Shown: positions 19,344-59,976 of the stretch, in pieces
How positions within the stretch are numbered: position 1 is the stretch's first letter
Layout of the letters: each line of letters begins with the position of its first letter
Assembly (NCBI GenBank): GCA_963575745.1
Contig: CAUYUJ010014320.1
Coordinates: forward strand, 243,501-307,500
Direction: 5' to 3'
Origin: Prorocentrum cordatum
Taxonomy: Eukaryota; Sar; Dinophyceae; Prorocentrales; Prorocentraceae
DNA: 64,000 nucleotides
Notes under the pieces: model-generated
Database searches by the model: none
Seen by the model: only the letters and a program-made list of their open reading frames with translations
Told to the model about the DNA's origin: nothing
Translations under genes and position numbers: made by a program

Positions 19344-19345
19344 GT

Positions 19346-28885: not shown

Positions 28886-29054
28886 AATCGACGATTAATT
28901 GCGTCTGTATGTTTTTTCCCCTCCTGAGAGAGGGGCGCAAAGAGGCCCCAAAGGAGGCCCCACGAGGGCTCAGACAGGGGCCCGAGCGGGGGCCCAGGAA
29001 TCCCCCCCCCGACATGGCCCGCGAGACCGCCACCAGCCCCCGAATGCGCCTCTA

Positions 29055-32382: not shown

Positions 32383-32513
32383 GTGGGGATACTTTTTTTC
32401 AGCCGCAGGCGGAAGCGCCGGCGGCGAGCAGTGCTGGTGGGGATATTTTTTTTATACAGCCGCAGGCGGAAGCGCCAGCGGCAGGCTGTCACGGTCGGGC
32501 TGCGGCCGACTAG
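32383..32513 (-). repeat. End repeat of the giant element, two tandem copies
   Basis: Copies at 32383-32425 and 32437-32513 read GTGGGGATA, a T run, then CAGCCGCAGGCGGAAGCGCC and GGCGGC or AGCGGC. On the minus strand each ends in an A-rich stretch plus TATCCCCAC, as expected for a LINE 3' tail that has been duplicated. A third copy is at 59888-59976. Confidence 0.75.
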
Positions 32514-33696
32514 GGAGCGGGCGCGCGCGGGGCCGCGGTCAGGCGGCAGGCAGCAGCGACCCAGGGCGTCTGAGCCAAGGCGTGCATATCCAGGGAGTCT
32601 GCAGGGCAGCCCCTGAAAGGAACATGCAACGGCGCATCCAGGGAGTCTGACCACAGGCACCGAGGAAGCAGAGCGCAGCCAAAATGGCGCGCAAGGCGTT
32701 CCCAACAGTTCGAGTACGAACGGGTAGGAAACGGTCCCGAGCGAGACGTCAATCCAGGGAGTCTGACGGGTAGGCACAGACTGACTGGTGACACAGTCCA
32801 GCGGGGAAACCCTGACGGCGGAGGCGGACCAACGCGACGTCAGAACACGCATCCAGGGTGTGGAAACAAAGTAGCCAGGGAAAGAACCTTCCACAACTGA
32901 GATGCGCCTGAGCCCTTGGGCCAGCGACTGGTAAGAGCACAGCAACGTGCACAAAGCCACACGGTCGAAACACGTGCTAGCTGAAAGTGCACCACCAAAG
33001 TGACTCAGCGCCACACATACGCGTGTAGGGTAGCACCCGAGGGGCGGGACCGTCGTATACCCAAAACGCGTCCCTCAGAGTCACTTCATTCCAGGGGCAC
33101 GGCTGAAGGCCGTTAAAAGGTTGTGAAATCCAGGGGGTGACGAATCTATGGACAGGCGAAACCGCCAGGGCCCACAGTCGCGCGCCAGGCCGCGCCTGGC
33201 GGGTGAAAACATCTACAATAAGGCCGGTGGCCACAGGTCCACTTGCGGTGAGTGAGCTGAGGGGACGGCATTACCGACACGCACACCTGAATCCAAAGGC
33301 AGGAGGTGCGCGCGTCGGGGGGAGGCCGGCGGAACGCCGCAAGCGAGCGGGGCCCGCAGCGCGGCTCAAGGCTGCGCCAGGGCGAACTCCAGGGTGTGAA
33401 ACACAGCAAGAGTGGACAACGTGAACCCTACGGTTAGGATTCAGCGACCGCTGGTAAGAGTAAGTGCAGCGGGGCCAGGGGCCAGCTAGGGTCTGCAAGC
33501 TGCGCACTGTCACGCAGTGGTGCAGATAGTATTACTGCGCGGCACACCATGGTCCAAAGGTAGGAAGAGTGCCGTCCAGGGGGGGGGGGCAGTCGGGCTT
33601 CCCCGCGGTTGGAGAGTGAGAAAGCGGCTAAAGGCCGCACGCAGTGTGTAGTGAGGTTGTCGTGGTGGCGCATGGCGTTGGGAGTGGGGAGTGAGC
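32514..33696 (-). other. Presumed 3' non-coding region of the giant element
   Basis: No domain in any frame. It holds three copies of ATCCAGGGAGTCTG (32588, 32636, 32752), several ATCCAGGG variants and two perfect small hairpins, ACGGC-TGAAG-GCCGT (33099-33113) and GCGGC-TAAAG-GCCGC (33624-33638). A hairpin GTTCG-AGTA-CGAAC is near 32708. Confidence 0.5.
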
Positions 33697-34758
33697 TCAG
33701 TCCCTCCATCGGAGCCTCTTTTCGTCTCTATCGTCTCGATCGTCGGGGCGGCCTCCGCCGCGTTTGCCGCCCGTCTGCCGGCGATCTTCGCGCCATCCAT
33801 CACTCCACTCGCCCTGCCAGCTGCCCCAGGTGTCCCAGGAGCTTGTCGCGCGGTCTCGCCAGCTGGTCTGCTGGTAGCTGCCTTTGCCCCTGCCGTCGGT
33901 ACGGGAGTGTCGCAGGTAGTCGGCTCGTAGCCTGTCCCAGCCAATGCCGTGGCCCAGCCTCGTGTTCATCAGGTAGGCGTCGCACCCGCAGTCCTTCCAG
34001 TCATCGAGAAACTTCTTGATGGACGCGGCCGCGTGCAATTTCGGGTCGGATTTGGGCGCCCTGGATCCAGGGAGCCAAGTTCGCTGCGTGTGCGCGGTCC
34101 ACAGCGCGCAGAAGACTGCGCCCAACTCCGACTGATGTCTGGCTATGCGTCTGGCGGGTGTCTCGCTGGGACGTTCCAGGTCCACCGTGCCCAGCCAGAC
34201 TTCGTACATGGGGCCACCCCCCTCCGGACAGGTCAACAGGTTGAGTGCGTCCTGCTCCGATGCGCCTGCATGGCGAGGGTGAAAGTGCCTCTGTCCAGGG
34301 AGCTGTGGGGTGGGCGCGGGGGAGCGCTCGGTCCGCGCGCCGCCTCGGTCGCGGGCGCTCTCGTCCACCGCGGGTCCCCAGGCTGGATCTCTACTGTGGT
34401 CGGCGTTGGGCGCGTCGTCCCCGGCCGAGGTCGGGACCTCCTCGCGGCTGGAGTCAGAGCTGTCCACCGATGGGCTTTGCTGAGGCGCCTTGTCGCCTGG
34501 GCAATTATCATCGCCCTCCGAGGCCGAGTCCGAGCAAGTAAAAGGAGGAGGGGGATCGCCTTCTCCGAAGTCGGGAGGCTCCACCCTTGTAGGGGGGATC
34601 CCGTCTTCCACGCTCTCGTCGTTGCCGGTGTGGTCGGGCGCGTCCTGGTGGCCCACGCGGGAGTCGTTGTCCCTCGTTCCCTGGGACTTGTCTGTGTCGG
34701 CAGCCGTGGGAGCGTCTGTTCTGTCATCGCTCATGATCAGCACGCCTGGTGGGGGGGG
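33697..34758 (-). CDS. Giant element, C-terminal acidic/disordered region
   Basis: About 350 codons. Read from the homopolymer at 34751-34758, the protein begins with an Asp/Ser/Pro-rich acidic stretch. It then has a more ordered part (residues about 190-290: MYEVWLGTVDLERP, SELGAVFCALWTAHTQRTW, HAAASIKKFLDDWK) and a basic tail rich in Arg, Asp, Gly and Trp. No family recognised. It follows the zinc-rich region after a single-base frame change at a run of eight G, so both were probably one protein. Confidence 0.5.
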   Translation of the reverse strand, partial: PPPPGVLIMSDDRTDAPTAADTDKSQGTRDNDSRVGHQDAPDHTGNDESVEDGIPPTRVEPPDFGEGDPPPPFTCSDSASEGDDNCPGDKAPQQSPSVDSSDSSREEVPTSAGDDAPNADHSRDPAWGPAVDESARDRGGARTERSPAPTPQLPGQRHFHPRHAGASEQDALNLLTCPEGGGPMYEVWLGTVDLERPSETPARRIARHQSELGAVFCALWTAHTQRTWLPGSRAPKSDPKLHAAASIKKFLDDWKDCGCDAYLMNTRLGHGIGWDRLRADYLRHSRTDGRGKGSYQQTSWRDRATSSWDTWGSWQGEWSDGWREDRRQTGGKRGGGRPDDRDDRDEKRLRWRD

Positions 34759-37650
34759 ACTCAGCCAAGGAGGTGATGGATGCGGAGGCGAGGGCATCGG
34801 CACCGAGGCTGAGTAGGAAACTCGTCAGCGTGCTCATCTCATGTCGGATGGGAACGAGGCCGCTTGCCGGGGCCAGCGTCGCCGCATAATTCCTCCAGGG
34901 CTCCTTATGTCTCTCGCCGTTGGTCAGGTGTGCTACGACTCGCGCCGCGGCCACGCGCTTACCTTCCCAACGCTGGTTGGGTGGGAGACAGTTGTCCGGG
35001 ATGTAGTCACCATATACCGCCCTGAGGAACTCTGAAAGAAATTCGTCGGGCAAGGAGGCCTCGTCGCACCTGGGCTCCGGGGCGCTTCTGTCGCGATTGG
35101 CGACACAAAACTGCCTCCAGGTGCAGTCCAATTCAGGATGGAAGTCGCGGGGGAAGGTGACCAGCGATCGCTGCGCGGACAATCCACCGGTGCCAGGTCT
35201 GCTGGGGTCCCCAGCGCATAGGGTGGGATTATAGACGCTCCTGTTGCTCAGGAGCCGGCCCTGTGGTACTGGCAAGTCTGGCAAGAGCTCCAAAAGCTGC
35301 GCGAGAGACCTAGGGGTTTGCTCGGACGTTGCACCAGTACTGCCCGCGGCGCTGGATCCAGGGGGATTGCTTACTCCGACCTTGGTGAATCGATCCTGGA
35401 CCTTGGCGTCCACGCCTAGCCATGGGAGAGAATCAGAAATGTCCACAGACGCTTCGACTCCTATCTGGCTGCTGAGCGAAGGAAGGACTGGAGGCTTGGC
35501 TGGATGCAGAGCTCTGAAGTCACGATCCAGGATGTGATCCAGGGTGGTCGGGCCTATGTTCCATATCGGGACCAGGCAGCGTCGGCAGCACCATGTAGCG
35601 TTCCATTTGCGCTCCCACCAGGCCATGGCTCGCTTGTCGATGGGAGGCAGTCCAGCTTGCTCGGGAACACCTATGCCTTCCGCCGGCTTCCATCTGAAAC
35701 ATCCCAGGGGCGGGGAGCCTGTGTCCCAGACGAGGGGCGGGGCCCCCTGGGGGCATGTGTCGCACCGCGCGGAGTAAATCTGGGTCTGCGCGGCTTTGAG
35801 GCCGAAACGCTCGTCCCGGATCCGTAGGATGGGAATGGTGGTATTGGCTCGCTCGGGGATCTTCATGCCCGTCGGCGCCATGAGGAGGTCCGCTAACGTC
35901 CTCGTGTCCGCCTGGGGGCTGCATCCAAAGCCAAGCGGGAGGTGGCCCAGGGAGGGGAGGGCGTTCGCCTTGTCGTTGTTGGCACCCGTCCTCTGTTGCT
36001 CATGCTCCTTGACTCTGTCGGCGAATGTCGCTCCTGTCGGCGTTGGGAGGCCCTGTTCCTCCAGGTGGCGTAACCAGCAGATGTCGCAGTGCCACCCCAT
36101 GTTGGCGCCGTTGATGTAGGCCTGAAGCCTATTCTGAGCGACCATCTGGCGCGTGGTGTCGGAGATCCAGGTGCCATCGGCGGAGCGTAGATGGTCGTTC
36201 CCGCACCTGTCGCACCTGAATCTGCCGTTTTTCTGCTCGGGTGCGAGCCTCTCGTCGGGGATGTATGGAGGGTCCTGTCTGGTGCCTGGGGCGGGGGTCG
36301 GCGGCGGGGGGGCATTGAGGTCGGTGTTGGACAAGGCAAGTCCGCCGCCGATGTAGGAGAGACCCGCAAGCCGATCGTCAGGACCCAGGGAGGCGTCGGT
36401 CCCCGCCAGCGCAACGTGTAGCGCACACACTGAGCAGCTGCGCGTATCCAGGGAGGTCAGAGATGCGGCCGGGACGATCTTTTCGAGGACGAGCACTGGC
36501 GCTTTTAACTGAAAGTCCTGCCTGTCCATCTCACTCCAGGTCTGCGCAATCGGGTGGTGGTGCGCCAACGCCACGAGCTTGGAGATGTAGGGCAGGACTG
36601 CCTCGATGCGTCCGTGTAGGTCGGCAAGGTCGTCCAGCGTGAGGCTCCAGGTTCGGGCGAATTGGTTTCGGAAGCTCTGGTGAACCTCTTGCCAGGGGAC
36701 ACAGAAACCCAGGATGGCTTCGATGACGCCCCCGGCCTGCTCTGCATGAGAGAAGGGCCACAGAAACACGCGCGGCTCGCGGAGCATGAGCATCATGACG
36801 ACCAGGAGCGACCGGGCCTTGCAGGATTCCATAGGGAGGCCGCCGGTGTCTATGATTCCCTCACGGAACTCGTCCCTCATGGAGCCGCCCAGCGCGCCTC
36901 GGGGGATCTCTTCCAACCCCGCCATTCCAGGGTGCTTCCTGTGTCTGCAGCAGTCCTTGGTGGCGGTGCTCCACGCCTTAGGGGCCTGACGGAAGAGCCC
37001 CTTGGGCGTGCACTGGCGACGCTTCCAGAGTGTTACACGCCTGCCACTTGTGTGAGGCAACGGTGGAAGGGAATCGTCAGGGACTGCATGGCTCGCGTCT
37101 TCCCAGGGGGTGCCCAGGCCGAGCGTCCACACCATTGCCGCCCACAGCATATTGTAGACTAGACTGGTTGCGTCTAGCCCCAGAGACATGTCAAACAAGA
37201 AGCCCAAGTGCGACCGCGCCTTGCGGTCGAGCTTGCCCGGCTGTCGCGGCGTCGTGGCCAGTGAAAATTCGTGGGGGTGCAGACCGGACATCAAGTAAAT
37301 GAGCACGTGGAAGGCAGGCGTCGAGAGGATATCGTGGAACCCACCCGAGATTAGCTTACCCAGGGCCTCCCAGTCGAAGTGCTCGTCCAGGGGTGTGTTA
37401 TAGCGCTCGGCGAAACCGGTGGCCTGGGCGTCACGCGCTTTCTTCTTGGCAGCGTCAAGCTCGTTCTGCCTGTTCTCCCCCTTTGCGTCACAACTCCAGG
37501 CGATGGGCGAGGGCATCCACGAGGCGAGGTCGTGCAGTGGGTCCAAGCTCTCGTCGATATCCAGGGAGCGCCTGTGGCCCACGGAGGCGCTGCCACGAAA
37601 GCGGACCCAAAGGCGAGTCAGTCGCCCGTTCTCTGAGAGTACGCGAAGCT
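34759..37650 (-). CDS. Giant element, zinc-rich region after the helicase
   Basis: This is the remainder of a 1,022-codon frame that starts with the last helicase motif. After about residue 90 it has no family I know. It contains three Cys clusters likely to bind zinc: FRCDRCG...HCDICWLRHL (about residues 545-600), SARCDTCP...WCCRRCLVPIW (about 685-770) and CSVCALH (about 475). Between them are helical stretches. The position behind a UPF1-type helicase suggests RNA or DNA binding, but this is inference. The frame ends at the eight-G run 34751-34758. Confidence 0.55.
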
Positions 37651-40388
37651 GGGACCAAATGGCATTGGCGAACATACGCCCGTCTCCCAAGATCAGGATA
37701 TTCCGCTTGGCCCTGGTGATCGCCACGTTCAGGCGTTTGGCGTCGTCGACGAAACCCCAGTTGTGGTGCCCATTGCCCCGCGTAGTTAGCACGATTACGA
37801 TGTGCGCCTCTCATCCCTGGCTGGAGTCGATTGTGGTGAGCTTGAGCGCCCCACTCTTCATGTGCTCGCCCGCAATCTGCCGTAGTCCAGGGAAAGAAAT
37901 GCCGATGGCTGCAGGGACGTTATGGTCCTCTCGGAACACCCTGTGGCCTTGATGGGGGTTGTCCAGGGCCGGGGGTGTCTTGTCCGTCGCGCCCAGAGCC
38001 GCCTTTCCCCTTGCCAGTCTTCCCCTTCCTGCCTCCTTTAGTGTTACGCAGGACGCCAGCAAGGTGGCGGGGACCCTGCGGCCAACCATCCATGAGGATA
38101 GCCGTCTGGAGCCGGTATCCGACCACGGTTCTGACAGAGGTGCCATTGTCGAGCTCGGGCAGAAGTGCCCGCACGATGTCCACGGCCTGAGCTGCCTCCG
38201 GAAGGTTGGCATAGCCTGGTTGTAGGTCTGAAGTGACTTCCCAGGAAGGTGTGTTAACCAGCAGGCAGCGGTGCTTGTCTGCGCTTGGCGGCGGATCTAG
38301 CTGCTCGAGGGTGGCGCGGAGGTCACCCTCGTCGGACTCGGTGAGTTTCGCCAGCTCTGTCAGTCGCCCGGGTTCCCAAGCACTAATGTCTCTCCAGGGG
38401 ATGCCTCCGACGATTGGCCTTTCTCTGAGCGGATCCAGGATACCTGACTTCATGCCTTTTCCGTAGTAGGCTGCGTTCGGAAAGGCGAGCAGCTGCGGAT
38501 GCATCCGATAGCCGATCGAAAGGTGAACCACGGACGATTCTTGGCCGCGGGGCGCGTGAAACATCCGGTCGAAAATGCTGACACAAAGCCCTAGGTCGTT
38601 CGCAAGCTTGGAGAGCACCGTGGGGGGCAACTGATTCGGGTCACCCACGAGGACCAGGGTCCCGCCGCTGTTGATCACATTTACCATGGACATGAGTGCA
38701 TGGAGCTCTGTGGCCTGTCCAGCCTCGTCGATTACCAGGAGGACGATGTGGGGGCTGTCTTTTTGTCCGAGGGCCTCGGCCGCCTCATGTGTCGACATGA
38801 TTACCCTGGCATCCCGTAGTAGGCTCGTCTTGTAGGGCCTGAAGTCCTGGCTCTTGTCCCCGTCCTGGAACGGGAATTCTCCGTGGGCGTTCCTGTAGTG
38901 GCCTTCAGGCGTCAGGTCAACGAGTGCCTCATTGACACGGTCCTTCTTCGCCAAGCGCGCGAAATTTCCAGGGAACCCCGTGTCTGGGTCGAGGCGTTGC
39001 TGCCGATGTGCTTCGATCATTGCCAGAGCTGGTTGGTCCACCGCTGTGTTAGAACCTGCGGCCAAAGCAACAGCCTGTCCAGGGCGTAGACAGGAGCCCC
39101 AAATGTCCACGCAGGCTACAGAGAAGGTGGTCTTGCCTGTCCCAGGGGGTCCGTGCACTAGTACGGCGTGATGACTCAAGGTGGCATGCAGGGCCCTGGT
39201 CGCGTCGCTGTTCGGCTTGTGCTTGTCCAATATGCTGCGGAGGGTGTCCATGCTGGGAGTAGGACGTACTCTCTGGAAGACAGAGCCTGTCGCCTCCGAG
39301 ATCTCCTCGTCAGAGAAAGCCCTCAGGCCCTGGGGGAGTGGCGGCGCCTGCTGTAGAAGGCCGTCTCGGACAGCCTGCGTGTGGTCGGCGTCGGGAACGT
39401 CCTGGCCCAGGGTGGCAGCCGCCCTGGCCCTAAGGCTCAGCCCCAGTGAACGAGCGTGCCCCAGGTCGTTGGCCACAAGTCGCTCGGTCCGCGGGGCGCG
39501 CACGAAGGCCAAGAGAAAAGTCACAGGGGACAGCTGGTGGGCAAACAAATCCGCTGGGTTCTGGCGAAGGTAATAGATCTGGTCGAGAGCCCAGCACTGC
39601 CGCCAGAACAGGATGTCAGAGGGGGCTTCGTCCACGCGATACCAGGGAGCATCGTCGCTTGGGGGGCGTTTCGCCTTGGTCTCGTCTTCGTGGAACTGAC
39701 CTCCCTTCCCACTATTGCAGGCCACAATGCACCTGTTGGAGGGGTACCTGGCGGAAGGGCTGAGACCGAGCGCCTGGGCGTCTCTAGGGTGGATGGGGCC
39801 TCCCAGAGCAGGAGGCCACCAGACTGTGACGTCTGCGATCTTGTCTACTATGGGGCCCGTGACGGAAATATACAGGCCCCTGCTCTCTTTGTCACCTCCC
39901 AGGGATCTGGATGCAACCTTGTGCATTGAGGGCCACTCCAACAAGAAGAGTTCTGTGCCGTCAGGTAGATCCATAGCATTCCGCAGCCGAAAGGTATCCA
40001 GGTCCTCCAGCTCAGTGCTGGCATCGATCCTGGCGATGCGAACTCCGAGAGCACAGTTACCTCTCCTGGCCAGATCCTCTCGCGTGGAGCCTTTACCGTC
40101 GTCCATCGTCTCGACAGAGGCCTGGCTTTCCACCCGGGCGATTCTCCGTAGCGTCTGTCCTCGATCCTGGAGAGAGTAGGGCCATTGTGAGGGGAGACGA
40201 ACGGCACCGTTCAGCTCCCCGAGCGCCGCCTTGGGGTGGACCCTGGAATGCGGGGAGTCCAGCGGTACCGAGTAGAGACTGACGACCTCTGTGGCCGCCT
40301 GCATGGCCAACGACTCGTCCAGGGCAGCTGGGCTTGTCGGAGAGAACGCGTCATCCTCGGAGGGCGTCGCACTGTCTTCGGCAAACAA
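37651..40388 (-). pseudogene. UPF1-like superfamily 1 helicase
   Basis: The 822-codon first segment (37920-40388) has motif I GPPGTGKTT, then SNTAVDQ (Ia-like), VIDEAGQATE (motif II, DEAG as in UPF1/SETX-type enzymes), VGDPNQLPPTV (motif III) and SIGYRMHP (motif IV). A frame change near 37970 leads to a short frame with LTTIDSSQG (motif V). An in-frame TGA (37811-37813) interrupts the motif V Gln-Gly-Arg-Glu position. The same frame then gives RLNVAITRAKRNILILGD (motif VI) near 37730. All six motifs are present, so this is an ATP-driven 5'-to-3' RNA/DNA helicase by family. The N-terminal 350 residues are not recognised. It lies just downstream of RNase H. Confidence 0.88.
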
Positions 40389-40478
40389 AACTCTTCGCTG
40401 CTGACTGGGCGGGCTCCAGGCGGGCGGAGGGCGGGGCGGCGGGGGCAGAGGAGGGGGTACGACCGAGGCGCCGGTAGC

Positions 40479-41135
40479 CTATCCAGGTACGGTGGGATGG
40501 GGCCCGATGGTCGAATTTGCTCGCATCCTGTTCTCGTCGCCGCCGTCGGACTGCCTGAGGCCTTCACTTGCGGCGCCCCGCCTGTCCATCAGGTGTGTCC
40601 GCACCGTCTCCGAGTCAGACCTGGTGCCCCCAGGGCAGTTGTGCGTTGGCGCGTCGTCCCAGAGAGGGTAGGTGATGGGCACATGCAGCGCGTCATCTGG
40701 GATCGACATGCCAAGGGGCGAGCGTACCCCGTCATGGGACACCGAATGTTTGACTGGCCTCCGGCCGGGCCAGGGCTTCCGCACGATGGGCAGCCGGTGG
40801 AACGCGTCCCAGGATTGCCCTCCACAGTTGCTCCAAAGATTTCCAGGAGTGACGAAGGTGTTCGGGTCTGGCCACCCGCCCCGGCACCGCCCTTCCGACA
40901 TCTCATAGTGCCTGTCGCTTAGGATGTGCTGTGTGTCGTCTACGGGCTCTTGGCAGATTTCGCACCAGTGTCGCCACCCGCCGTGGAAGTAGACCCAACG
41001 CATCCAGGGACAGAAGCGGGCCAGGAAGACACGCGTGCCCTTGCGCACTGGCGGCCCGTCGTCGCTGTACGGCAGGCAAGAGGGCCATCGTCGGATGGGG
41101 CCTTGGTTGTTCTTGGGCATGATCCAGGGCGTCAA
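40479..41135 (-). CDS. Giant element, zinc-finger linker between RNase H and helicase
   Basis: About 218 codons with WCEICQEPVDDTQHILSDRHYE near residues 58-79, a CX2C...HX5H pattern like matrin/U1-type fingers that bind nucleic acid. The frame is the same as the helicase frame and is cut from it only by a TAG (40479-40481); a Pro-rich stretch connects them. Upstream it follows a frame change at 12 G (41243-41254) and two hairpins. Confidence 0.5.
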   Translation of the reverse strand: MTPWIMPKNNQGPIRRWPSCLPYSDDGPPVRKGTRVFLARFCPWMRWVYFHGGWRHWCEICQEPVDDTQHILSDRHYEMSEGRCRGGWPDPNTFVTPGNLWSNCGGQSWDAFHRLPIVRKPWPGRRPVKHSVSHDGVRSPLGMSIPDDALHVPITYPLWDDAPTHNCPGGTRSDSETVRTHLMDRRGAASEGLRQSDGGDENRMRANSTIGPHPTVPG

Positions 41136-41148
41136 ACGGTCCAGGGTG

Positions 41149-41192
41149 GCAGCTGAAGGCTGCTATATCTTTTTGCGGCAGCTGAAGGCTGC
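41149..41192. repeat. Two GCAGC-TGAAG-GCTGC hairpins
   Basis: Perfect 5-bp stems with the TGAAG loop at 41149-41163 and 41178-41192, 14 bp apart, in the linker between the RNase H and zinc-finger frames. Confidence 0.85.
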
Positions 41193-41254
41193 GACCCGTC
41201 AGGACCTTAGCGCGTAGCGGCGGGGGGCGATCAGAGGAGAAAGGGGGGGGGGGG

Positions 41255-42710
41255 ATTTTCGAGAGCGTCCGCGAACTGCGCAACCTGGTCCAAGTCGCAG
41301 AGGTCAACACCCGCAGCAGGGAAGAGGGGAGGGGAGGGGCGCTGGGAGCCTTCCCAGACAATCCAGGAGGTGACCGCCAGGTCACCGGCGCAGCGGAGGG
41401 CGTCGGCCCAAAAGACCCCTAGTGTCGCGAGACGGTCGGCTGCTTTGTTGAGGCGACGTCGCACTGCCTGCCATGTAAGGGTCCAGCCCGCCTCGCTGGC
41501 TTGCCTGAGGGCGAAATCCATCTGTTGTGCCAAGTGGAGCCGGCGATGGCGGCCTGTGCCGGCTCCGTGCCGGATAGCCGCCAGGTTGTCGCCAACCACC
41601 CTGGCTCCTCGAAGTGTGCTGTCTACGTGGGTGAGCAGGGCGAGGCCAGCTCTGCACCCTGAGGCCTCCGCCGTCTGCGCGTTGTCGCAGCCTGGAAGGG
41701 CGACAACGGCGACAGCGACAACGCGCGGGTAGCCGCGGTGCGGGTCGTGTCTCCAGAGGACAGCGGCCGCGCCGGAGACCTTGTCACCTTCCCCAATCCG
41801 GCGTGCTCCTCCATCGAACGTGAGCTCATAGGGCCATTGGGCAGTGTCGGCGGCGGGGAGCGGGGAGTTTCCGACGGTGATCTCCTCGCCCGCATCCATA
41901 TCCCTGCCAGTTCTGAGCACCAGAGTACGCAGGTCGCAGAGCCTGCAATAGGTCTTGGTCCAGAGGGCACTGGGGGCCCTGTCCGTCCTGGGACAGGGGA
42001 ACCAGCCCACCCCTGGTGGCATCCAGCTCGCCCTGGGGTCGCAATTTTGGAGAACGGCGAGCCGGTCCCCACTTCGCGCGGACCTGGTCGTGATAGGGAG
42101 GCGCCGGATTTCCCCCCCGGCGCGCGGCGCCTGTCTGCCGAGGCGCGGCCCGGCGGCCCCACGAATGCGCAGCAGGCGTGGCCCTTGGGGATTGCACTGC
42201 TGACAAGGGTCGAGCATGGGGGCCCAGACCGCGGTTTCATCCGCAGGTGCGGCCGGGGCCTGCCCTTCGTGCATGTCATCGTCCTCATCGTTGTCTTCCT
42301 GGAGGTCGGTATCGGGCACAGTGATTCCCTGGGCGATGAGTCTGGCGGCTTCGTCGGCACCGATAGGAGTGCAATCCAGGTTCACACAGTATCTGAAGGA
42401 GGTCTGGTGTAAAAGGCGGCAGACAAGTCTCTGGTGCTGACCCCTGGTGCACATCGCGGTGGCAAGGTCTCTGGGGTGGTCTGGGCCTCTAGCCTTCTCC
42501 CGGGCAAGGGCAGCTGCGGGGCACCAGCGCCGCGCGTGCTCAGTGGTGGCTTCCCCAAGGCCGCAGAGAGGGCAGGCTCCATAGAGCCCTTGCCGGATAG
42601 GAACGCTGATGCCGCCGAGTTGCCTTCTTCGCTCTGCAGCAAGTGGACGCAGGTCCTCGGGCAAAGCGTCGTCGCCAAGGAGAGGCCAGAGGGGAAGCCT
42701 CTCCAGTCCA
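41255..42710 (-). CDS. Giant element, CCHC finger and RNase H
   Basis: The first part holds CPLCGLGEATTEHARRWC, the CX2C...HX4C finger found after the thumb in LINEs. RNase H follows at the C-terminal end: YELTFDGGAR (first Asp), AEASGCRAGLALL (Glu), RVVGDNLAAI (Asp) and RLNKAADRLA (last Asp), all four catalytic acids in order. RNase H removes the RNA template during cDNA synthesis. The frame goes on to a Pro run encoded by 12 C (41243-41254 on the plus strand), where it breaks. Before about 42715 the protein is read in another frame. Confidence 0.85.
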
Positions 42711-48316: not shown

Positions 48317-48329
48317 GTCGGCAGGCTGG

Positions 48330-51864: not shown

Positions 51865-53593
51865 CGTCCCAGGGTCCTTCCAGGAGGATGCGGCGCGGTC
51901 CTAGCGCCGTGAAGGAGGACCCGTCTCCAAAGATACGCGGAAGCTCGTCCCGGAGGTGCCTCAAGACGGGGGCAGCAATCCTTTCTGGAGTGGCGATCAG
52001 GAGAAGCCCCGTCCCGCAAATTCCCACTCTGTGTCCCATGGCTCCGGCTGTTGCGGAAGCAACGGAGTGGGCTATGCTAATCGCCCTGGGGGGAACTGGG
52101 ATGTGCACTGAGTCACTTGTCTCGTGGGTTCTCCAGACGCACGCCGTCTGGTGGGCCAGCGTGGTGATTTGAGCTGCCGCCTGCAAGTTGTCCAGGGGGG
52201 CACGTGTGCCGTCTTCTCCGCTCACGGGTCTCGCCGCTCGGCAGCGAAGAACGTGATGGAAGAGCATCTCGAGTCCCTGGTGTCTTAGTAGTTCGTCCCG
52301 GAGGAGTTGCACTCTCGTGGTGACCCAGTCGGCCGCGATCGTGCCGCTGTGGGATTGCCTTAGTTCCTCATTCCACCTCGTGATCTGCGCGACGACACCG
52401 TCGTTGCCGCTCTCAGGGGTTAGGATGTGTAGTGCGTCAGAGGTGTCCCTGGTCCTCCCTCCCCAGTGCGCGACTATTGACGGGGGCAGAATCGCACGCA
52501 GTGTCCTGCCCGCTAAGTCAAATTGAGCGGCAAAAAGCTGCTGCATTGGGGGGCTGGGCTTGCCAGTTCGGCAGGGGTAACCGATCGGGACGACGTGGGT
52601 GATTGTGCTGGCCGCTCGGCATCCCCATCGCGCGTTTGCCAGGGCCGCGAGCTCGACCGGATCCGGTCCTCCAGGGGATGGCACTCCCTCGGTGGCCAAG
52701 GCGATGACACAGCATGGGCAACCCGCGGCAGAAGCTGCCGCCAGGGCAGCATCCATCTGTGGAGCTAGGGCATCTACCACGAGGATCGTTGGGGCGGCGC
52801 CCCCCGGGGGCTGGTTCCTGCGCTCCGTGACTACTGCTTTGATCTGCTCCCAGGCGTCGGGGCCTGCCAGGGCGAAAGTGACTCCGGTCTCATCAGCTAC
52901 TCGTTCGCCGACGTACGTGCTTCTGGAAATTACCAGATCAACTGCGATGTCTCGGACGGCCGTGGCTAGCAGCCCCACCGGGAACCGCATAGGTCCTCTC
53001 CTCCTGGGTTCGTCCTCTGGTGGGTTCCGCCCCAGCAGAAGGGCCCATCTCCCAAAGGTGATCCGCGGGGCTTGCCGTGTCCTATCCGCCCTGTTGGTGG
53101 GGCCGAGGGGTCGCTGTGGGGGCGGGGCCCCAGGGCTCTGCGAGCTGTCATGCGTGTAATCGGGGCCCATGCCGCTTCCACCGTTTCCACCGTCAGGTGG
53201 GGTTCCGTCCACATCCATCGGGGCTTGATGTGTCTCCTGAGCGGTCCTCCCCTTGGTTACGTGCCCGTGAATTCTGCGCATATCCGAAAGCGTGACGTAT
53301 GTGTGGGGCCGTCGGATGGAGAGCGCTTGCGCTCTGAGGCAGTCCAGGTCCATGGCCAAATGTCTGACGGCCTCGGCTAACTCCTGCAGACTCAGGAAGG
53401 GCTGCAGCGGGGGTAAGGCCCCATCGCGGAGTTGCAGGAGGTCTGGTGGTACCGCCACCGCAGCAGCGTCGGCATCTCGGACTCGTCCTGGCAACCTTAC
53501 GGTGACGCTACCCCTATCATTGGAGCGGCAATTAGGGCAGTTCACTGGGAAGCATCTTCCGTGGGAGTGGGCCTGCGTTGGCTGGCTCACCCT
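51830..53593 (-). CDS. Giant element, end of RING finger and unknown ordered region
   Basis: The first residues complete the RING finger of the upstream frame (CPNCRSN). After a linker there is a region of about 350 residues with alternating strands and helices (FPVGLLATAVRDIAVDLVIS, PTILVVDALAPQMDAALAAA, CPCCVIALATEGVP) that resembles an alpha/beta domain I cannot place. It ends with LRHLRDELPRIFGD. The link to the upstream part is a TGA at 53594-53596 in the same frame. Confidence 0.45.
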   Translation of the reverse strand, partial: RVSQPTQAHSHGRCFPVNCPNCRSNDRGSVTVRLPGRVRDADAAAVAVPPDLLQLRDGALPPLQPFLSLQELAEAVRHLAMDLDCLRAQALSIRRPHTYVTLSDMRRIHGHVTKGRTAQETHQAPMDVDGTPPDGGNGGSGMGPDYTHDSSQSPGAPPPQRPLGPTNRADRTRQAPRITFGRWALLLGRNPPEDEPRRRGPMRFPVGLLATAVRDIAVDLVISRSTYVGERVADETGVTFALAGPDAWEQIKAVVTERRNQPPGGAAPTILVVDALAPQMDAALAAASAAGCPCCVIALATEGVPSPGGPDPVELAALANARWGCRAASTITHVVPIGYPCRTGKPSPPMQQLFAAQFDLAGRTLRAILPPSIVAHWGGRTRDTSDALHILTPESGNDGVVAQITRWNEELRQSHSGTIAADWVTTRVQLLRDELLRHQGLEMLFHHVLRCRAARPVSGEDGTRAPLDNLQAAAQITTLAHQTACVWRTHETSDSVHIPVPPRAISIAHSVASATAGAMGHRVGICGTGLLLIATPERIAAPVLRHLRDELPRIFGDGSSFTALGPRRILLEGPWDGGPSFVRLFRP

Positions 53594-53720
53594 TCACTGT
53601 CTCAGACATTCGGCGTGGAACAAGTGGCCGCAAGGCATCAGGACTTCCGCGAAGCCCAAGATGTTTTCACTGCAGATCATGCATAGGGGAATACCTATGT
53701 CCAGGTCCCAAGGGGGGAAC
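53500..53720 (-). CDS. RING finger of the giant element
   Basis: Reading across a TGA (53594-53596): PLCMICSENILGF, then MPCGHLFHAECLRQ, then CFPVNCPNCRSND. The spacing CX2C, CXHX2HX2C and CX2C is that of a RING-type zinc finger, the E2-binding module of ubiquitin ligases. The TGA falls two residues after CLR, where many RING fingers have Trp. A retroelement RING could mark host or element proteins for degradation; that role is inference. Confidence 0.7.
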
Positions 53721-54392
53721 GTCCACGGCGTCCATGCTTTCCGGGGGAAGTCTGGCGTTGTCTCCAGGGGGGTGGCTGATTTGGGCAAGGCCGTCCCCCA
53801 AGCTCTCGATGAGGGCTCTGGCGGAAACACTGGCGTCAAGGTGCGTCAGACTAGCTCCCTCGCTGAGATGGCATATGAGGGCTTGGATTTGCAGGTTGGT
53901 GAGTTCGGAGTATGGCGCTAGATCGGCATCAGGCAACTCCCCTCGGAGACAGGTAACCACGTCCTCCGGCGTGTGTATCTCGTTCCTAGTCATCCAGCGG
54001 TAGAGAACGTCGTAGGGTCGGGAGTCCACTGCCCGCACAGTGAGTACTGGCCTGAGGAGGGGGAAGTAGTGCGGTGCCAGGCAGAGCCACAGGGCTCTAG
54101 AGATCCAAGGACCTGGTTGTCGATTTGCCCTGTGATCCAGCAGCAAACTCTGTGCCAGGCACTGCGCCTGATCTCCGTTGACGGAGGTCCTTCCTTCCGG
54201 GGCCGGCATGGTCCCTCTGCCCGCCCCCTCCTCGTCCCGTTGTCTGGCGTCAAGAGTGCGGATGAGTCTGTCCAGGAGCTCTTCTCTTGTGCTGCCAAGT
54301 GGTAGTCTGCCCTGAGGGGCAGCGAAGCTTGCTCGATTGAGCAGCTGTCGTATGTCCGCGTGCCAGGGCGTAGTTGTGCTTGCGGCTTCCAC
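53718..54392 (-). CDS. Giant element, unknown helical region
   Basis: About 225 codons ahead of the RING finger, joined to it by a frame change at six G (53712-53717). Helical segments such as TREELLDRLIRTLDARQRD, RALWLCLAPHYFPLLRP and ELTNLQIQALICHLSEGASL recall adaptor or oligomerisation helices. No family recognised. The upstream frame joins near 54390. Confidence 0.4.
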
Positions 54393-55474
54393 AGTCGCGG
54401 CCTCCGTTCCAGGGCGAGCCCTGCCTTCGAACGTGGGCCCGTGGTTCCTTGGGTTTGGCCTCGCTGCGCGCGCGCCCTCGCTCCAGCCTCTACTGCCTGC
54501 CGATCCCCTGATAGGATGGCAGTCTGTAGGAAGCCGTTTGCATCCAGGTGCAGCATCATTCGTTCCTGGAGCAGTGGTGCGATGTAGCCGCCTACTTCGG
54601 GAGCCTCGAACGTGGCACCGGCTGCCCTGGACGATATGTCTGTTTCCGACGCGAGTACTAACTGGGCATCTCTGTAGGAGCTAACGCCTCGTGATCTCCA
54701 CCAAGCTGCTGCCTGGTCGATGATGGTGGTGCTAATGTTGCTGCTCGTAAAGGCCTGCTCGAGCACGCTCCGACCTCCATCGGTCGCAGTGCCCCATATG
54801 AAAGGGACCAAGATTCTGCTCCACCGCATACCTGGGGTGACGGAGCTGCTGGCAACCCTCCTCCTGATCCTCCGCACCTCGTCGATGAATGCCTCTCGCT
54901 GGGAGCGCTCCGCTTGGGATAGCCCCTCCACCGGATCTGGGGGGGGGGGTCTCTGGGGGGATCTCGTTCCGACCCCTTCCCCGCCCGTGTGGCTCGCCCT
55001 GTCGCTGCAGGGGTTGTCCACATTCATGGGAGAGCGCCCGTCGCTGGGACGCCCAGCACGCACTTGGTCCTGACCCCTACTGTCTGAGTCCAGGCGCCTG
55101 ATGACGGCATCTTTGACGAGGTTTCCCAGGGGGGTACCCTGTCCCATTTGGGGATGTATTGGGCGCCAGTCGGTGCGTGCGGCTGCTTGTAGTGCACCTC
55201 TCATGACTTCTGCTGCCTGGGAGTGTGGGCTGTCTCTATTGTGCCACCAGCGTCTACTGAGGTCCGTACCGTCTCGTGCGTCGCTTATAGCGCGATCTAG
55301 GTGATCCCCGCCGATGGCGTATCTTAGCCAGCAGAGGTCATCCAGGTGCACCACGGTGTTCGGCCCTATGGAGACGGTTGTGGTTGTCCTGCTCGACAGG
55401 GGGGGCCTCCAGTATGGTGGTGGGTGCGCGTCTGGGCCGTCGTGATAGAGAGGCGGAGGGAACCAGCCGAAAAG
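54393..55474 (-). CDS. Giant element, unknown region
   Basis: Read in one frame from the TGA at 55475-55477 to about 54390, then continuing in the next frame. It includes VVHLDDLCWLRYAIGGDHLD, a Pro/Arg/Asp-rich spacer, then a helical stretch (SQREAFIDEVRRIRRRV, LEQAFTSSNISTTIIDQAAA, YIAPLLQERMMLHLD). No family recognised; composition suggests part of the same structural protein as the flanking frames. Confidence 0.4.
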
Positions 55475-56232
55475 TCATCCTTCGGGGTTGGTCCTGATGA
55501 CGCGTCGTATTTTCTGGCAGACGTTTAGGGCCCAGGAGCCTGGCGCGAAGCAGAGTAAGGCCAGAGAGATCGCTGCTGTGCGGAATTGCCAATCGCTCCC
55601 GACTTCCTCGAGGGCTCCGGTGTCTTCGTATGCCACCATATGTCTTCAGGCTCCCAGGAGTTCGCCCACGAGCCAGGTCGGGGTGAAGTCGGAGGGGCCA
55701 GGCTGGGCGGGGGAGTAGAGATGCTCTCCGATTGGGGCATACCGCATGCCCGCTCTGACAAGCTGCAACAGCAGGGCGGTGTCCAGGAGGTCGAGGGCAT
55801 GCCTGTTGGGTGGTTGGCCCGGGCCTGCGCCTGGGTGACTCTGTGGTAAGTCATCTGCACGAGGCTCCCCTGGGTTGTAGCTCCAGGGGTTGACCAGCCT
55901 GTGGCAGGTGATGCAGATTCGCCCAGTGGGATCTCGAAGCATCCAGGTGCCGCAGAAATCACATCTCTCTCTCGGGCAGAACAAGTTCCGCAGCCGTAGC
56001 CTATGCGCTGTGGTGGACCAGGGCCACGCGTTGTCGCTACTGTCGCTCCCTTGAATGGGCACTCCAGGGATGCCCGTTGAGCTGGCGGGTATCCCTGAGA
56101 GGGCGGGCTCTACCCATGGTACTGGGCCTCTACCTGCTTGTCGTCTCGAGTGCACGTCGTTCCCCGCCCGTTCGAGGTTCCCTATCGTGATGGACCGCTG
56201 CCTGACGTCCCCATGGTCCGGAAAGTGGACTA
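55475..56232 (-). CDS. Giant element, zinc-ribbon-like region
   Basis: One frame with two in-frame TGA codons (55646-55648 and 55475-55477). It holds CPRERCDFCGTWML...GRICITCHRL, two CX2C pairs about 15 residues apart that fit a zinc ribbon. Downstream segments ALDLLDTALLLQLVRAGMRY and ALNVCQKIRRVIRTNPEG are helical. A frame change near 56232 links it to the upstream frame. Function unknown. Confidence 0.45.
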
Positions 56233-56765
56233 TATTTGTCTGCGCTCATGAATTAGGACTCTGTGTGCATACCCCATGGTCTCATCATCCGTGGGGTCCT
56301 GCGCCCCGTCTGTTCGGTTGGGGCCACTGCTGCGCAGGGGAACAGCATCTTCGGGAGATCTGGTGGGCATGGGCATCCTATCTGTGTCAAATCCGCTCGG
56401 GAGCTCCATGCCTATGTCGCAATAATGCGCAGCGGCGACCATGGCAACGTACTCGAGACGCGCAGCTGTCTCTCCGTCGCTGAGGGGTCGGCGGCGTCCA
56501 GCCTTTCCCTTCTTATGCTGGGGTCATGGGTGATGCTCGCAAAGCGAACGGCAAGAACCTGTATTGGGTCAGGTTGCACGCCTCCTAGACGCCCTTCGTA
56601 GTCTCCTCCAGTGAGGGACCAGACAAGCCAGGAGTGGTCCAGGATAGCGAGGATCGGGGCCGAAGTGGCTAGCTCCGAGCCGAGTCCAGGGAAGGCGGCT
56701 TCTGCTGGAGCCACCCGCATGGGGCTGTCGGCTCGTATGCCTGGGTGGCCTGGGCGGTGCCCCCT
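56233..56765 (-). CDS. Giant element, unknown region
   Basis: Two overlapping frames (56412-56765 and 56230-56442). The first is in the same frame as the long disordered ORF upstream and is separated from it only by a TGA (56766-56768). It contains APILAILDHSWLVWSL and PIQVLAVRFASITHD, both strand-like. No family recognised. Confidence 0.35.
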
Positions 56766-58637
56766 TCACGCGTGGTGCATGAGAAGCTCATGGTTGCTGG
56801 TCTCGCGCGGGCTTCTCGGCGCTCCGCGGTCGGGGGCCTCGCGCCAAGGACCATCAATGCGCGCCAGGTGCCGGCGGAGGGCACTCATGGCACCCCCCCT
56901 GCCGGTGACCCTGGCGTCCGCCACGCGCGGGCCACACATGGGTCCGTCCGCCTCCCGGCTGGCCGCCCAATCAGCATTCGCGTGTCCAGTTGCGTCCAAC
57001 CGCCGGGCGTGGAGGTCAGCAGCGCCTTGCCCTCTGTTTCTCCGCGCTTGACTGGGGCCCTCAGCATCTGAGGAGGCGGGCTGGTTCTCCATCCGCAATT
57101 CCTCCTCCAAGGCAAGGTCTGGGGATGGGTAGGAGGGCGGGTCAGCTAGGACAAGGCCCCCATGTGCCGCGTGACTCACCACGAAAGGCGAGCCGTTGTC
57201 CGTCCAAAGGAGGGGCCCCCGTTCCCGATCTTGTGAAGAGTACTCATGGCCGCGGCGGCATCCGCCAGAAGGGCCATCAGGACACTCGAGCCCAGGAGGC
57301 GGGTCGGGAGGGGAGTAGTCGGGGGAAGAGCTGGTGGGCGAGGGAGGGAAGGCACGGGGCGATCCGGCAGCAGCGATCGGAAATCTGGCGCGATCGATCC
57401 GATCAACCAGGGGAGCGGCCCCGACCGCGGCATCGGAAGCGATCCTGGTAGCGTTGGGCGAGCGAGGTAGTCCCATGGACCACCCAGCCGTCGCTCCCAG
57501 GGAAAGTCGATTGCGATCGATCATTTCCGTGGAGGGGTGCGCCTCCCTGCGACCACTGACATCAGGATCACCCGCCTCTCGCTCTCTTCCTTCTGGCTGA
57601 AGGCCAGTCTCTACAGTGAGGTTGGCTGCGCGGGGGCTGGGCGCGACTCTGGCGTCGGCACACGCACCTCCAGGGAGAGGAGCGTCAGGGGCCCCAGGAG
57701 GAGCAGGGTCCCCTCCGCTCGTGGTCGCGGGCACAGCGCTTCTATATACGTCCATACGATCACAGGTTGCTGCGGGGGCTGAAGGCCTGTCTTCTATGTC
57801 CGCTCCGCTGCCTCTCGATGCGCCTTGACCTCTCGAGCCGATGGCTCGTTCGGAGCGAGCATCTCGAGCAGCGGGCACGCCGCTTCCTCGGCTGCCCGAA
57901 TGGGGGGCGGGTGTCTGACGAACGTCTTCGGAGTTCCAGGAGCGCCCAGGGAGTTGACTGCTCGACGCATCGCCCTCGGCTCCGCGCGGTCCACTTGGGG
58001 CATCCCAGGCTGCGGGGTCGGTCAGGGATGCCTCTCTGGGAGCTCCTCGGGCTGATGGCCCGTTGCCTATGTGTGCGATGCCGTCAACCCCAAGGAGTGC
58101 GTCGGGCGCGCAGCGACTCCCGTCGCCACTCGCGCCCGCCCACCCAACAGCACTCCCGGGGACTGCGGGTGCCGTCTCCGCATCTCGAGCTGAAGGCTCA
58201 TCACCTCTGAGGTCACTGGAGGTGACTTGGGGTCTCGAGCTGAGGGCTTGCTCTGATGCGATACTGGACGGTTCAAGGGCTGAAGGCCCCTCATCTATAT
58301 CCATTGTGCTGCATCCCGCTACGCCTTGTACGCTCGAGCTGAAGGCTCGTTCACTGGGAGACGCTCGAGCTGACGGCTCGTTCAAGGCCCGTTCTGCTGC
58401 GCCGAATGTGCCAGAGGTCGCCCCACGGGCTTGAGGCCCATCTTCTGTGTTCAATTCGCAGCTGAGGGCTGCCTCACTCGGCGCCGAAGCATCCAGGAGT
58501 GGAGATTCGGCGGAGTGAAGGCGCAAACCTCTGCGAAGCGCATCGGGGCCAAGGGCAGGTGTCTGCCTGTCTCCCCCCCCCCCGACGCCCTCGCAAACAC
58601 CCCCTGTGGGAGCCAGATCCCTGGTACTCTCTTCCAC
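56766..58637 (-). CDS. Giant element, long disordered region with EPSAR/GPSAR repeats
   Basis: 623 codons very rich in Ser, Ala, Pro, Gly, Asp and Arg. Motifs EPSAR, GPSAR, GPSAL and SEQALSS recur; these are the translations of the DNA hairpins described at 57593-58882, so the repeats may exist for the DNA or RNA structure and not for the protein. The C-terminal 150 residues are less repetitive (NQPASSDAEGPSQARRN, MSALRRHLARIDGPWREAP). The frame ends at an in-frame TGA. Confidence 0.4.
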   Translation of the reverse strand: MEESTRDLAPTGGVCEGVGGGGDRQTPALGPDALRRGLRLHSAESPLLDASAPSEAALSCELNTEDGPQARGATSGTFGAAERALNEPSARASPSERAFSSSVQGVAGCSTMDIDEGPSALEPSSIASEQALSSRPQVTSSDLRGDEPSARDAETAPAVPGSAVGWAGASGDGSRCAPDALLGVDGIAHIGNGPSARGAPREASLTDPAAWDAPSGPRGAEGDASSSQLPGRSWNSEDVRQTPAPHSGSRGSGVPAARDARSERAIGSRGQGASRGSGADIEDRPSAPAATCDRMDVYRSAVPATTSGGDPAPPGAPDAPLPGGACADARVAPSPRAANLTVETGLQPEGREREAGDPDVSGRREAHPSTEMIDRNRLSLGATAGWSMGLPRSPNATRIASDAAVGAAPLVDRIDRARFPIAAAGSPRAFPPSPTSSSPDYSPPDPPPGLECPDGPSGGCRRGHEYSSQDRERGPLLWTDNGSPFVVSHAAHGGLVLADPPSYPSPDLALEEELRMENQPASSDAEGPSQARRNRGQGAADLHARRLDATGHANADWAASREADGPMCGPRVADARVTGRGGAMSALRRHLARIDGPWREAPDRGAPRSPRETSNHELLMHHA

Positions 58638-59028
58638 GTCGCAACGGCCCCTGGGTCGAACGCCGCGGGCATCCCTCTGCCTGCCGTCATCCGATCCAGG
58701 GAAGCGACTGAAGGTTAAAATATCTGTGTGTATCGCAGGGGTGAACGCATCACCCCCTCCTCCAGCATCGCGCCTGCCGTGCTTATAAGTCCATGGAAGC
58801 GACTGAACGCTGCGTCTGCGTCGGAAGGCGCTCCGCGGGCTGAGGGCCCATCTTCTATGTTCAATTCGCAGCTGAGGGCTGCTTCACTCGGCGCAGAAGC
58901 ATCCAGGAGGGGAGGTTCGGCGGAGTGAAGGCGCAAGCATCTGTGCAGCGAGTCGGGACCAAGGGCAGGCGTCTGCCCGTCCCCCCTCCCGACGCCCTCG
59001 CGAGCGCCCCCTGGGGGGGGGCAGTTCC

Positions 59029-59076
<48 letters not shown>

Positions 59077-59130
59077 CGTCGCAAAGGCCCCTGGGTCGAA
59101 CGCCGAGGGCATCCCTCAGCAAATCGTCGG
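58436..59130. repeat. Tandem duplication of about 280 bp
   Basis: 58436-58713 and 58845-59130 are about 85-90% identical by eye: both begin GGCCCATCTTCTRTGTTCAA and contain a hairpin GCAGCTGAGGGCTGC, GACGCCCTCGC and CCCCTGGGTCGAACGCCG. The second copy contains the long C run. Confidence 0.8.
59032..59072 (+). repeat. Run of 41 C
   Basis: An uninterrupted homopolymer inside the second duplicate copy; the first copy has only ten C's at a comparable place. Length may be unreliable. Confidence 0.9.
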
Positions 59131-59887
59131 ACTGCCTACGAGGACCTGGATCCATGGGGGGTTCGCTTGTTCAGAAGTGGGGCCCTCGCCCCCCGTAAAC
59201 CTGGAATCGCCGAGGGCGATCCCACTCTGCCCAACGCCGCCTGGAGAGAAAGAGATTGGGCGCCCAGCAATGGGCATGGGAAGGGTGGGGGTGAGAGAAG
59301 GGGATACGCTAGGCGGGAGGGCATCATGCCTGCCGTTAGCACATCCAGGGAAGCGAGTGAAGGTCGCAATGTCAGTGTGCATCGCGGGGTTGAAAGCTTC
59401 AACCCCTCCTACCGTATCATGCCTGCAGCTCTCAAATCCAGGGAAGCGACTGAAGGTCGCAATATCAGTGCGCATCGCGGGGTTGAAAGCATCAACCTCT
59501 CCTCCCGTTTGGCTGAAGGCCAAAGGTTCTCGTGTGCATGAGGCATCGGCGGAAGCGTTCCCACTCCAGGGAGCAGGGGGCGACGGCTGCCCTGTCGGAA
59601 TGGTGTCCTGTGATCCAGGGCGAGGATGCCTTGAATCAGCCAGCCCGCTGGCTCCAAGGTCTTGAACCGGTGACGCGGTCATCGTCGCCCCAGGGATGGC
59701 AGGACCATCGCCGATCGATCGCCCACCCATGCTAAGCAGGAGGGCCGCTGCACGTAGCCGACGAAAAGGAATCCAGGGAGTCTGCAATGGCGGCCCGGCC
59801 CCGGGGGAGACGCGCGGCCAACAGACTCCTAGGGGAAACCCCTTGAGCTGGGAGACCCGGCCGAGGGACCGGGGCCCAGAGGCTTGA
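59130..59887 (-). CDS. Giant element, 5' repeat-bearing frame
   Basis: The frame 59116-60078 includes two copies of FNPAMRTDIATFSRFPG-like text (encoded at about 59345-59400 and 59430-59490), corresponding to DNA repeats with hairpins GGGGTTGAA-AGC-TTCAACCCC (59386-59406), GCGAC-TGAAG-GTCGC and GGTTGA-AAGCA-TCAACC (59481-59497). A copy of ATCCAGGGAGTCTG is at 59771-59784. No domain is visible; it may be 5' UTR and not protein. Confidence 0.3.
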
Positions 59888-59976
59888 GTGGGGATACACT
59901 TCTTTTTTTTTACTTTACAGCCGCAGGCGGAAGCGCCAGCGGCGGAAGGTCGCGAACGGGCCGCGGACGCGACTAG
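59888..59976 (-). repeat. End repeat of the giant element, 5' side
   Basis: GTGGGGATA, a T run of nine, TTTACAGCCGCAGGCGGAAG and CGCCAGCGGC, continuing to GACTAG. It matches 32437-32513 along its length with small gaps, in the same orientation. Confidence 0.75.

Follow-up and report, generated by a model that had tools for sequence, protein, structure and literature searches.

Retrotransposons are traditionally given a size limit near 10 kb, and transcript length, reverse transcriptase (RT) processivity and packaging are said to hold them there (PMC6431247). The giants described in that source, namely the Terminons (Penelope-like elements of bdelloid rotifers) and the Burro long terminal repeat (LTR) elements, are far over ~10 kb and have accessory coding capacity, but they are LTR or Penelope-like elements and not long interspersed nuclear elements (LINEs). 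Superfamily 1 (SF1) helicases are known in the insect LINEs TRAS (R1 clade) and Jockey, where they are reported to come from plus-strand RNA viruses and, in TRAS, lie inside the ORF2 protein (PMC5563155, PMC6338049). A DNA methyltransferase (DNMT) in the first open reading frame (ORF) of a dinoflagellate LINE is also already known, from SymbioLINE-Dnmt of Symbiodinium (de Mendoza et al. 2018, PMC5890265). Here, we describe a 27.44-kb element, X, in a stretch of 64,000 nucleotides from the dinoflagellate Prorocentrum cordatum (contig CAUYUJ010014320.1, positions 243,501 to 307,500; the window). X is probably a single decayed copy of a giant LINE with three ORFs, most likely a dinoflagellate one.

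Like SymbioLINE-Dnmt, X has a C5-methyltransferase-like ORF upstream of an endonuclease-RT-RNase H ORF, putative target-site duplications and a dinoflagellate host. However, SymbioLINE-Dnmt is described as being without poly-A tails and as keeping the key DNMT residues, whereas X has an A-run and has lost the catalytic Cys, and the main text of that paper, with which X was compared by description only, never uses the word 'helicase' (PMC5890265). The insect elements resemble X in being LINEs that carry an SF1 helicase. In X, however, the helicase is a separate ORF3 of ~2.5k aa, its best matches are AAA_11/AAA_12 and UPF1/SEN1, and it has its own branch in the tree. Terminons and Burro resemble X in size and accessory coding capacity only as members of other retroelement classes. 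Our literature search, outside which most subscription papers lay, found no helicase-bearing dinoflagellate LINE and no ~27-kb LINE. This is weak evidence of novelty, and as far as searched a LINE of ~27 kb whose 2.5k-aa helicase has an ORF of its own is new. If true, a LINE of this length with three long ORFs and its own helicase would raise the size limit known for target-primed reverse transcription. It would also extend the dinoflagellate DNMT-LINE story and make it testable whether an element-encoded helicase lets an RT copy very long structured RNA.

The three ORFs of X

X is laid out on the minus strand from 59,888 to 32,446 in the order ORF1 (DNMT-like), ORF2 (pol) and ORF3 (helicase), and its features are listed in Table 1. 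ORF2 was traced with P0110, an intact public metagenomic protein of 1811 aa. It is collinear with the window over six segments of 53-63% identity, which together extend from 46,650 to 41,246. An earlier interpretation made from the letters of this DNA (the sequence-only reading) had given the order endonuclease, RT, zinc finger, RNase H, and this order is borne out by the collinearity. When 8000 candidates were scored in a search with the RT frame, nine proteins were found at E≤0.001 (P0110-P0118, 1662-1851 aa, E 1.3e-131 to 1.7e-58). Their identity to the window in the RT region is 39-58%, with 58% for the best. All nine are single predicted ORFs with an endonuclease, an RT, a CxxC..H..C finger and an RNase H, ending soon after the RNase H; P0111 begins within the endonuclease.

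In the window, the Pfam matches to RVT_1 (E 7.6e-4) and RVT_3 (E 2.1e-3) are both under the curated cut-offs, and no endonuclease family was listed for the window ORFs. Pfam was also run on eight of the relatives (P0117 was left out), and Exo_endo_phos was found in P0116 (E 3.4e-11) and P0115 (E 6.7e-9). RVT_1 and RVT_3 were found in the relatives too, several of the matches being below cut-off. The best PDB matches of a profile built from all nine relatives are the LINE-1 and TRAS1 endonucleases and the R2 RT. From these similarities, ORF2 is assigned to the LINE kind of pol with an apurinic/apyrimidinic endonuclease (APE)-type domain, followed by RT and RNase H. The catalytic box of the RT is YVDD in eight of the nine relatives and FVDD in P0118, but YVGD in the window. 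As the relatives combine these boxes with single ORFs and the window copy combines YVGD with broken frames, the relatives, but not the window copy, have the look of functional proteins.

Table 1. Positions of element X, its ORFs, domains and ends in the window
Feature	Position	Strand	Remarks
Whole element X, 27.44 kb	32446..59888	-	begins just past the 5' copy of TATCCCCA(C); the 3' A-run is its last part
CTCAAG at the 5' end of X, possible relict (last 6 nt) of a dinoflagellate spliced leader (weak)	59883..59888	-	18 CTCAAG on the window minus strand
5' copy of putative target-site duplication TATCCCCAC	59888..59896	-	3 copies on the window minus strand, 0 on plus
ORF1 region	46652..59730	-	candidate ATG 59,730, stop 46,652
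C5-methyltransferase-like region of ORF1	47411..48070	-	motifs I-VIII collinear; motif IV PCQ reads PGA
ORF2 (pol)	41231..46650	-	matches P0110 residues 7-1811; 6 frame segments, 1 in-frame stop
APE-type endonuclease domain (approximate)	45715..46371	-	from P0110 mapping
RT palm, RVT_1 match	43929..44345	-	catalytic box YVGD
CxxC..H..C zinc finger between RT and RNase H (approximate)	42523..42574	-	from P0110 mapping
RNase H (RVT_3)	41423..41782	-	
ORF3	33703..41120	-	collinear with P0119 residues 1-2119 and 2174-2541; 3 frame segments, 4 in-frame stops
C2H2-like zinc motif, ORF3 N-terminus (CEIC...H.....H)	40908..40964	-	conserved in P0119
SF1 helicase core (AAA_11, AAA_12)	37682..39200	-	
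Three exact CAGACTCCCTGGAT motifs, 3' untranslated region (UTR)	32588..32765	-	fourth in the 5' UTR at 59,771-59,784
3'-terminal stem-loop GCCGC.GGCG[CUUC]CGCC.GCGGC	32459..32482	-	directly before tail
3' A-run	32446..32453	-	sole run of at least 7 A inside X
3' copy of putative target-site duplication, TATCCCCACCAGC	32433..32445	-	9 nt in common with 5' copy
Copy Y, 41 nt, extremely 5'-truncated tail copy	32392..32432	-	between two TATCCCCACCAGC

ORF3 starts 110 nt past the pol stop and is complete to its first Met, and its SF1 core (AAA_11, E 1.2e-26 in Pfam) confirms the helicase that had been placed directly 3' of pol. The top match to the helicase frame is P0119, an intact public metagenomic protein of 2541 aa, with 541 bits and 54% identity over the whole query region, and the next-best match among the best 120 of 788 proteins has only 165 bits. 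Over whole ORF3 segments, identity to P0119 is 30-48%. The start (MPKRRNNQG) and finish (KRGKWR) of P0119 are both recognisable in the window (MPKNNQG at 41,120, and 33,703), and GPPGTGKT (Walker A) and a DEA box are present in both. Of the four in-frame stops of ORF3, two belong to the segment that begins at 34,863 and may fall where it overlaps the preceding one. The core of P0119 consists of AAA_11/AAA_12, and its nearest PDB structures are UPF1 and SEN1. A tree was built from 50 rows, comprising the window and selected search matches, in which source names or Pfam domains gave the labels UPF1, SEN1 and IGHMBP2. The window pairs with P0119 (100/100, branch length 2.84), and this pair is separate from the UPF1, SEN1 and bacterial IGHMBP2-like rows. 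However, the exact place of this helicase is unsure because of the midpoint root and the long branch. A host UPF1 gene was rejected as its identity, since it falls outside the UPF1 rows, and by its sequence relationships ORF3 is assigned to the SF1 helicases of the UPF1/SEN1 kind, not to UPF1 proper. Weak proline-rich matches of P0119 elsewhere in the window (low-complexity filter off, down to E 5e-9) were set aside as compositional.

A RING finger had also been reported. However, no RING family (C3HC4) was found in Pfam scans of 20 minus-strand ORFs, shorter ORFs lying outside the scan, in rescans at E≤10 or in P0119. The cysteine motifs seen instead are C2H2-like (WCEICQ...HILSDRH) or CxxC..CxxC pairs, and the C2H2-like motif at the N-terminus of ORF3 was possibly what had been taken for a RING. 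Without a RING, the suggestion that the element tags proteins has no support.

The DNMT-like ORF lies directly upstream of the RT ORF, the position that it has in SymbioLINE-Dnmt, though its identity as a DNMT is weak. That it adjoins and overlaps the pol frame agrees with the sequence-only reading, but not the overlap of 26 bp given there: the pol frame is open from 46,704 and ORF1 stops at 46,652, which makes 53 nt from stop to stop, and pol homology starts at 46,650. When aligned to a profile of nine C5-methyltransferases (Escherichia coli Dcm and eight from phages), ORF J (48,619-46,652) scored 29.5 over 176 columns spanning motifs I to VIII. As controls, the 60 other window ORFs of at least 250 aa (61 with ORF J) scored ≤22.4 and 100 shuffles ≤22.8, and three other ORFs of X gave nothing comparable. 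The earlier DNMT call is backed only by this weak alignment, which beats all controls; Pfam gives no match, and the catalytic Cys of motif IV (PCQ) is absent, the motif reading PGA in this copy. We predict with moderate confidence that ORF J has a real but remote C5-methyltransferase fold. Since the catalytic Cys is missing, this copy as read cannot methylate by the known mechanism, and marking of its own DNA, as had been proposed, is weakly supported. No CpG depletion was seen as a trace of self-methylation (observed/expected 0.83 in X, 0.90 in the left flank and 0.79 in the right flank). In a phage search, ORF J had two matches at E 6 and ORF S one weak match (32% identity over 14%).

The ORF1 region has several frame changes and is presumed to be one ORF. 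Its 5' part includes 93-nt repeat units (59323-59508 and 58674-58766) with the repeated peptide AFNPAM.TDIATF.RFPG.

Ends of X and its status as one unit

On the minus strand, the 3' end consists of the stem-loop, the A-run, TATCCCCACCAGC, copy Y with its own stem-loop and A-run, and a second TATCCCCACCAGC. On the 5' side, a truncated tail copy of ~80 nt, Z, is followed by TATCCCCAC and then, with a one-base overlap, by CTCAAG, which matches the last six bases of the dinoflagellate spliced leader. The 24-nt stem-loop sequence has three copies in the window, one of them just outside the 5' end and the other two in tandem at the 3' end. The repeat that had been noted on both sides is real near both ends, but it is the 3' tail of the family and is present three times. 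Folds of 101 and 141 nt, taken as wholes, gave z-scores of only -1.96 and -1.57. X has the stem-loop and A-tail at its 3' end and adjoins 5'-truncated sister copies (Y, 41 nt, and Z, ~80 nt), as expected of a LINE. TATCCCCAC occurs at both ends of X and behind copy Y and in no other place in the window; as a yardstick, 33 of 200,000 draws had a random 9-mer of the window turning up again in a randomly chosen 21-nt slot. Read most simply, these repeats are target duplications, of 9 nt for the 27.44-kb unit and of 13 nt for copy Y, at a site that was hit repeatedly. The two ends of X are also tied together by CAGACTCCCTGGAT, which is present in both UTRs.

All parts had been said to lie on one strand, and the coding signal, which extends from ~57.0 to 33.7 kb on the minus strand only, also in frame statistics, agrees with this. 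Every 1-kb bin of the minus strand between 34 and 56 kb is coding-positive in its best frame, while the opposite strand is not. The parts of ORF2 and ORF3 alignable to relatives were used to train a codon model. Among its 43 scoring windows over ORF1 (46.7-59.7 kb), the share above 0.05 is 65% for the minus strand and 0% for the plus strand. For the left flank (8-31.8 kb, 79 scoring windows), the values are 6% minus and 26% plus, and the DNA adjoining X is near zero or negative. However, the model is also positive on a neighbouring LINE at 2-6 kb (minus strand) and on parts of a Copia-like element (plus strand), and hence marks coding of this kind, not X alone. The signal common to ORFs 1-3 groups most of ORF1 with ORF2 and ORF3 in composition. 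Inside X there is no second A-run of at least 7, no T-run of at least 7 and no spliced leader at ≤3 mismatches, which speaks against another element hidden within.

The flanking TATCCCCAC, tails at the ends only, the codon signal common to the three ORFs and the fact that ORF2 and ORF3 each have intact relatives in single ORFs together argue that X is one unit, as the sequence-only reading held, and its size is several times that of ordinary LINEs. The frames, which had been called consecutive, are so in order but are broken, with six segments in pol and three in ORF3. Unless there are many assembly indels, these breaks imply a dead copy, and from its sequence the copy is frameshifted and presumably dead.

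Alternative explanations and a possible mechanism

Several points weigh against a single three-ORF LINE. This arrangement is known here from one locus alone, and P0119 (longest contig 15,598) and the pol relatives sit on contigs of different sizes: those of the nine pol relatives are 26,613 (P0110), 19,167, 21,306, 19,751, 6,931, 11,868, 14,979, 7,082 and 6,086, and none equals 15,598. The closest pol relative, P0110, has only RVT_1 in Pfam at E≤1, below cut-off, and the endonuclease is above cut-off in just two of the eight relatives scanned (P0115 and P0116). For ORF J, the hhalign probability against the methyltransferase profile is only 5.7%. No PDB sequence match was found at E≤10, and no Pfam match at E≤10 either, a setting at which the HMMER filters still drop most matches above about E 0.1. 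A single-sequence AlphaFold model of the DNMT part had a mean predicted local distance difference test score (pLDDT) of 35 and was not used. The least certain part of ORF1 is 57-59.7 kb, where the coding signal is weak or absent; this part is repetitive, holds a 41-nt C/G run and has a codon score near or below zero. Finally, as all three tails are followed by TATCCCCAC, it could be part of the 3' terminus of the family and not a target duplication, and there is no TATCCCCAC-type repeat upstream of copy Z. The borders of X would be unchanged even if TATCCCCAC belongs to the tail.

The separate contigs, with ORF2 and ORF3 seen together at no other locus, would suit a composite, in which an ordinary-size DNMT-LINE (ORF1-ORF2) was joined locally to a separate helicase element or retrogene inserted into or behind it. 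Whole-segment identity is also lower for ORF3 (30-48%) than for ORF2 against P0110 (53-63%). However, over the helicase core it is 54%, close to the 58% of the RT, and ORF3 begins 110 nt past pol and is complete to the first Met. A composite must further account for the whole having a single stem-loop and A-tail at its 3' end, with no A-run of at least 7 and no spliced leader between ORF2 and ORF3, and we consider it distinctly unlikely. It is very improbable that X is an old LINE that happens to lie beside host genes, namely a UPF1/SEN1-family helicase and unrelated ORFs. Dinoflagellate genes are often grouped in one direction (PMC11453091), so that same-strand order alone proves little, but the helicase falls outside the UPF1, SEN1 and IGHMBP2-like rows of the tree, ORF3 compared with P0119 is without introns (apart from frameshifts and stops), and the tails and the 9-nt repeat bracket the whole of X.

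We give equally little credence to a non-LINE with true terminal repeats (LTR-, DIRS- or Penelope-like) of which the 24-nt stem-loop would be part. The stem-loop does lie at both ends in the same orientation. However, the repeat covers only 73 columns at 81% identity, an A-run comes after it and a third copy exists; LTR-type terminal repeats were rejected, the repeats being copies of the family's 3' tail left by truncated insertions. The pol profile also points to LINE endonucleases and the R2 RT, and none of the 20 scanned ORFs was listed with a match to an integrase, a tyrosine recombinase or GIY-YIG. A different matter, compatible with a giant LINE, is whether working proteins are encoded and errors of assembly account for the frameshifts, the stops and the loss of catalytic residues. 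Most of the breaks are indels, and the GC-rich DNA contains long homopolymers, including a run of 41 C at 59,032-59,072 (plus strand) and a C run just before the pol stop. The substitutions at catalytic positions (YVGD, and PGA for PCQ) and the in-frame stops are against this, and we regard it as rather unlikely.

If X is, as we favour, one giant LINE, a ~27-kb transcript would be made by the host, perhaps capped by a trans-spliced leader. Translation would be polycistronic, with ORF1 and ORF2 overlapping, which suggests reinitiation or frameshifting, and ORF3 as a third cistron after 110 nt. The ORF2 protein would nick the target at TATCCCCAC and begin target-primed reverse transcription at the 3' stem-loop and A-tail, which would leave a short duplication. 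The ORF3 helicase would most likely ride with the ribonucleoprotein and clear structure and proteins from the template, which would let the GC-rich ~27-kb RNA be copied to its 5' end; a second option is that it shields the RNA from RNA surveillance. Unwinding of the element's own RNA, as suggested earlier, is thus a plausible role for ORF3. The DNMT-like domain of ORF1 may once have methylated new DNA or bound nucleic acid.

Nidoviruses, which are among the largest RNA genomes, have a helicase described as having a UPF1-like zinc organisation. We put forward tentatively, as an idea that is more doubtful than the reading of X itself, that a LINE lineage passed the ~10-kb ceiling by means of its own large zinc-bearing SF1 helicase (ORF3). 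This helicase would be an obligate processivity and RNA-protection factor with which autonomous ~27-kb RNAs are copied end to end, and such elements would form a new class of giant LINEs in dinoflagellates, whose swollen genomes they might partly explain. Relatives were also looked for among sequences with neighbouring DNA. Viral contigs yielded nothing for the stem-loop, P0110, the pol alignment, P0119 or ORF J, and genome contigs nothing for the pol alignment or P0119; a plasmid search with P0110 found no relative.

Other features of the window

The GC content of the window is 52-67% (2-kb steps). No Rfam family reached the gathering threshold in a scan of the window, and no tRNA genes were found in it.

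An ordinary LINE of ~5 kb lies on the minus strand from ~6845 to ~1774 (RVT_1, E 1.3e-11), with a leader pair at 6810-6845 as its 5' end. This pair consists of an exact 21-nt match at 6825-6845 on the minus strand to the dinoflagellate spliced leader, and a truncated second one directly after. The RNA of this LINE was apparently trans-spliced and retroposed at least twice. Like X, it has a LINE-type RT and lies on the same strand, and its own 5' end has an intact spliced leader. However, it is far shorter, none of its four scanned ORFs matches a DNMT or a helicase, and its RT has only marginal similarity to the family of X (hhalign P 0.02).

The Copia-like element is on the plus strand at 18802-29211, with RVT_2 (E 3.7e-11) and a zinc knuckle (E 1.1e-3, below cut-off). 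Its direct repeats are 19185-19343/28727-28885 (97%) and 18802-18965/29055-29211 (91%), and a spliced-leader-like 21-mer with 3 mismatches lies within it on the plus strand at 21976-21996. An inverted duplication, 8844-9421 versus 11312-10703, shares 85% identity and has many short tandem repeats around it.

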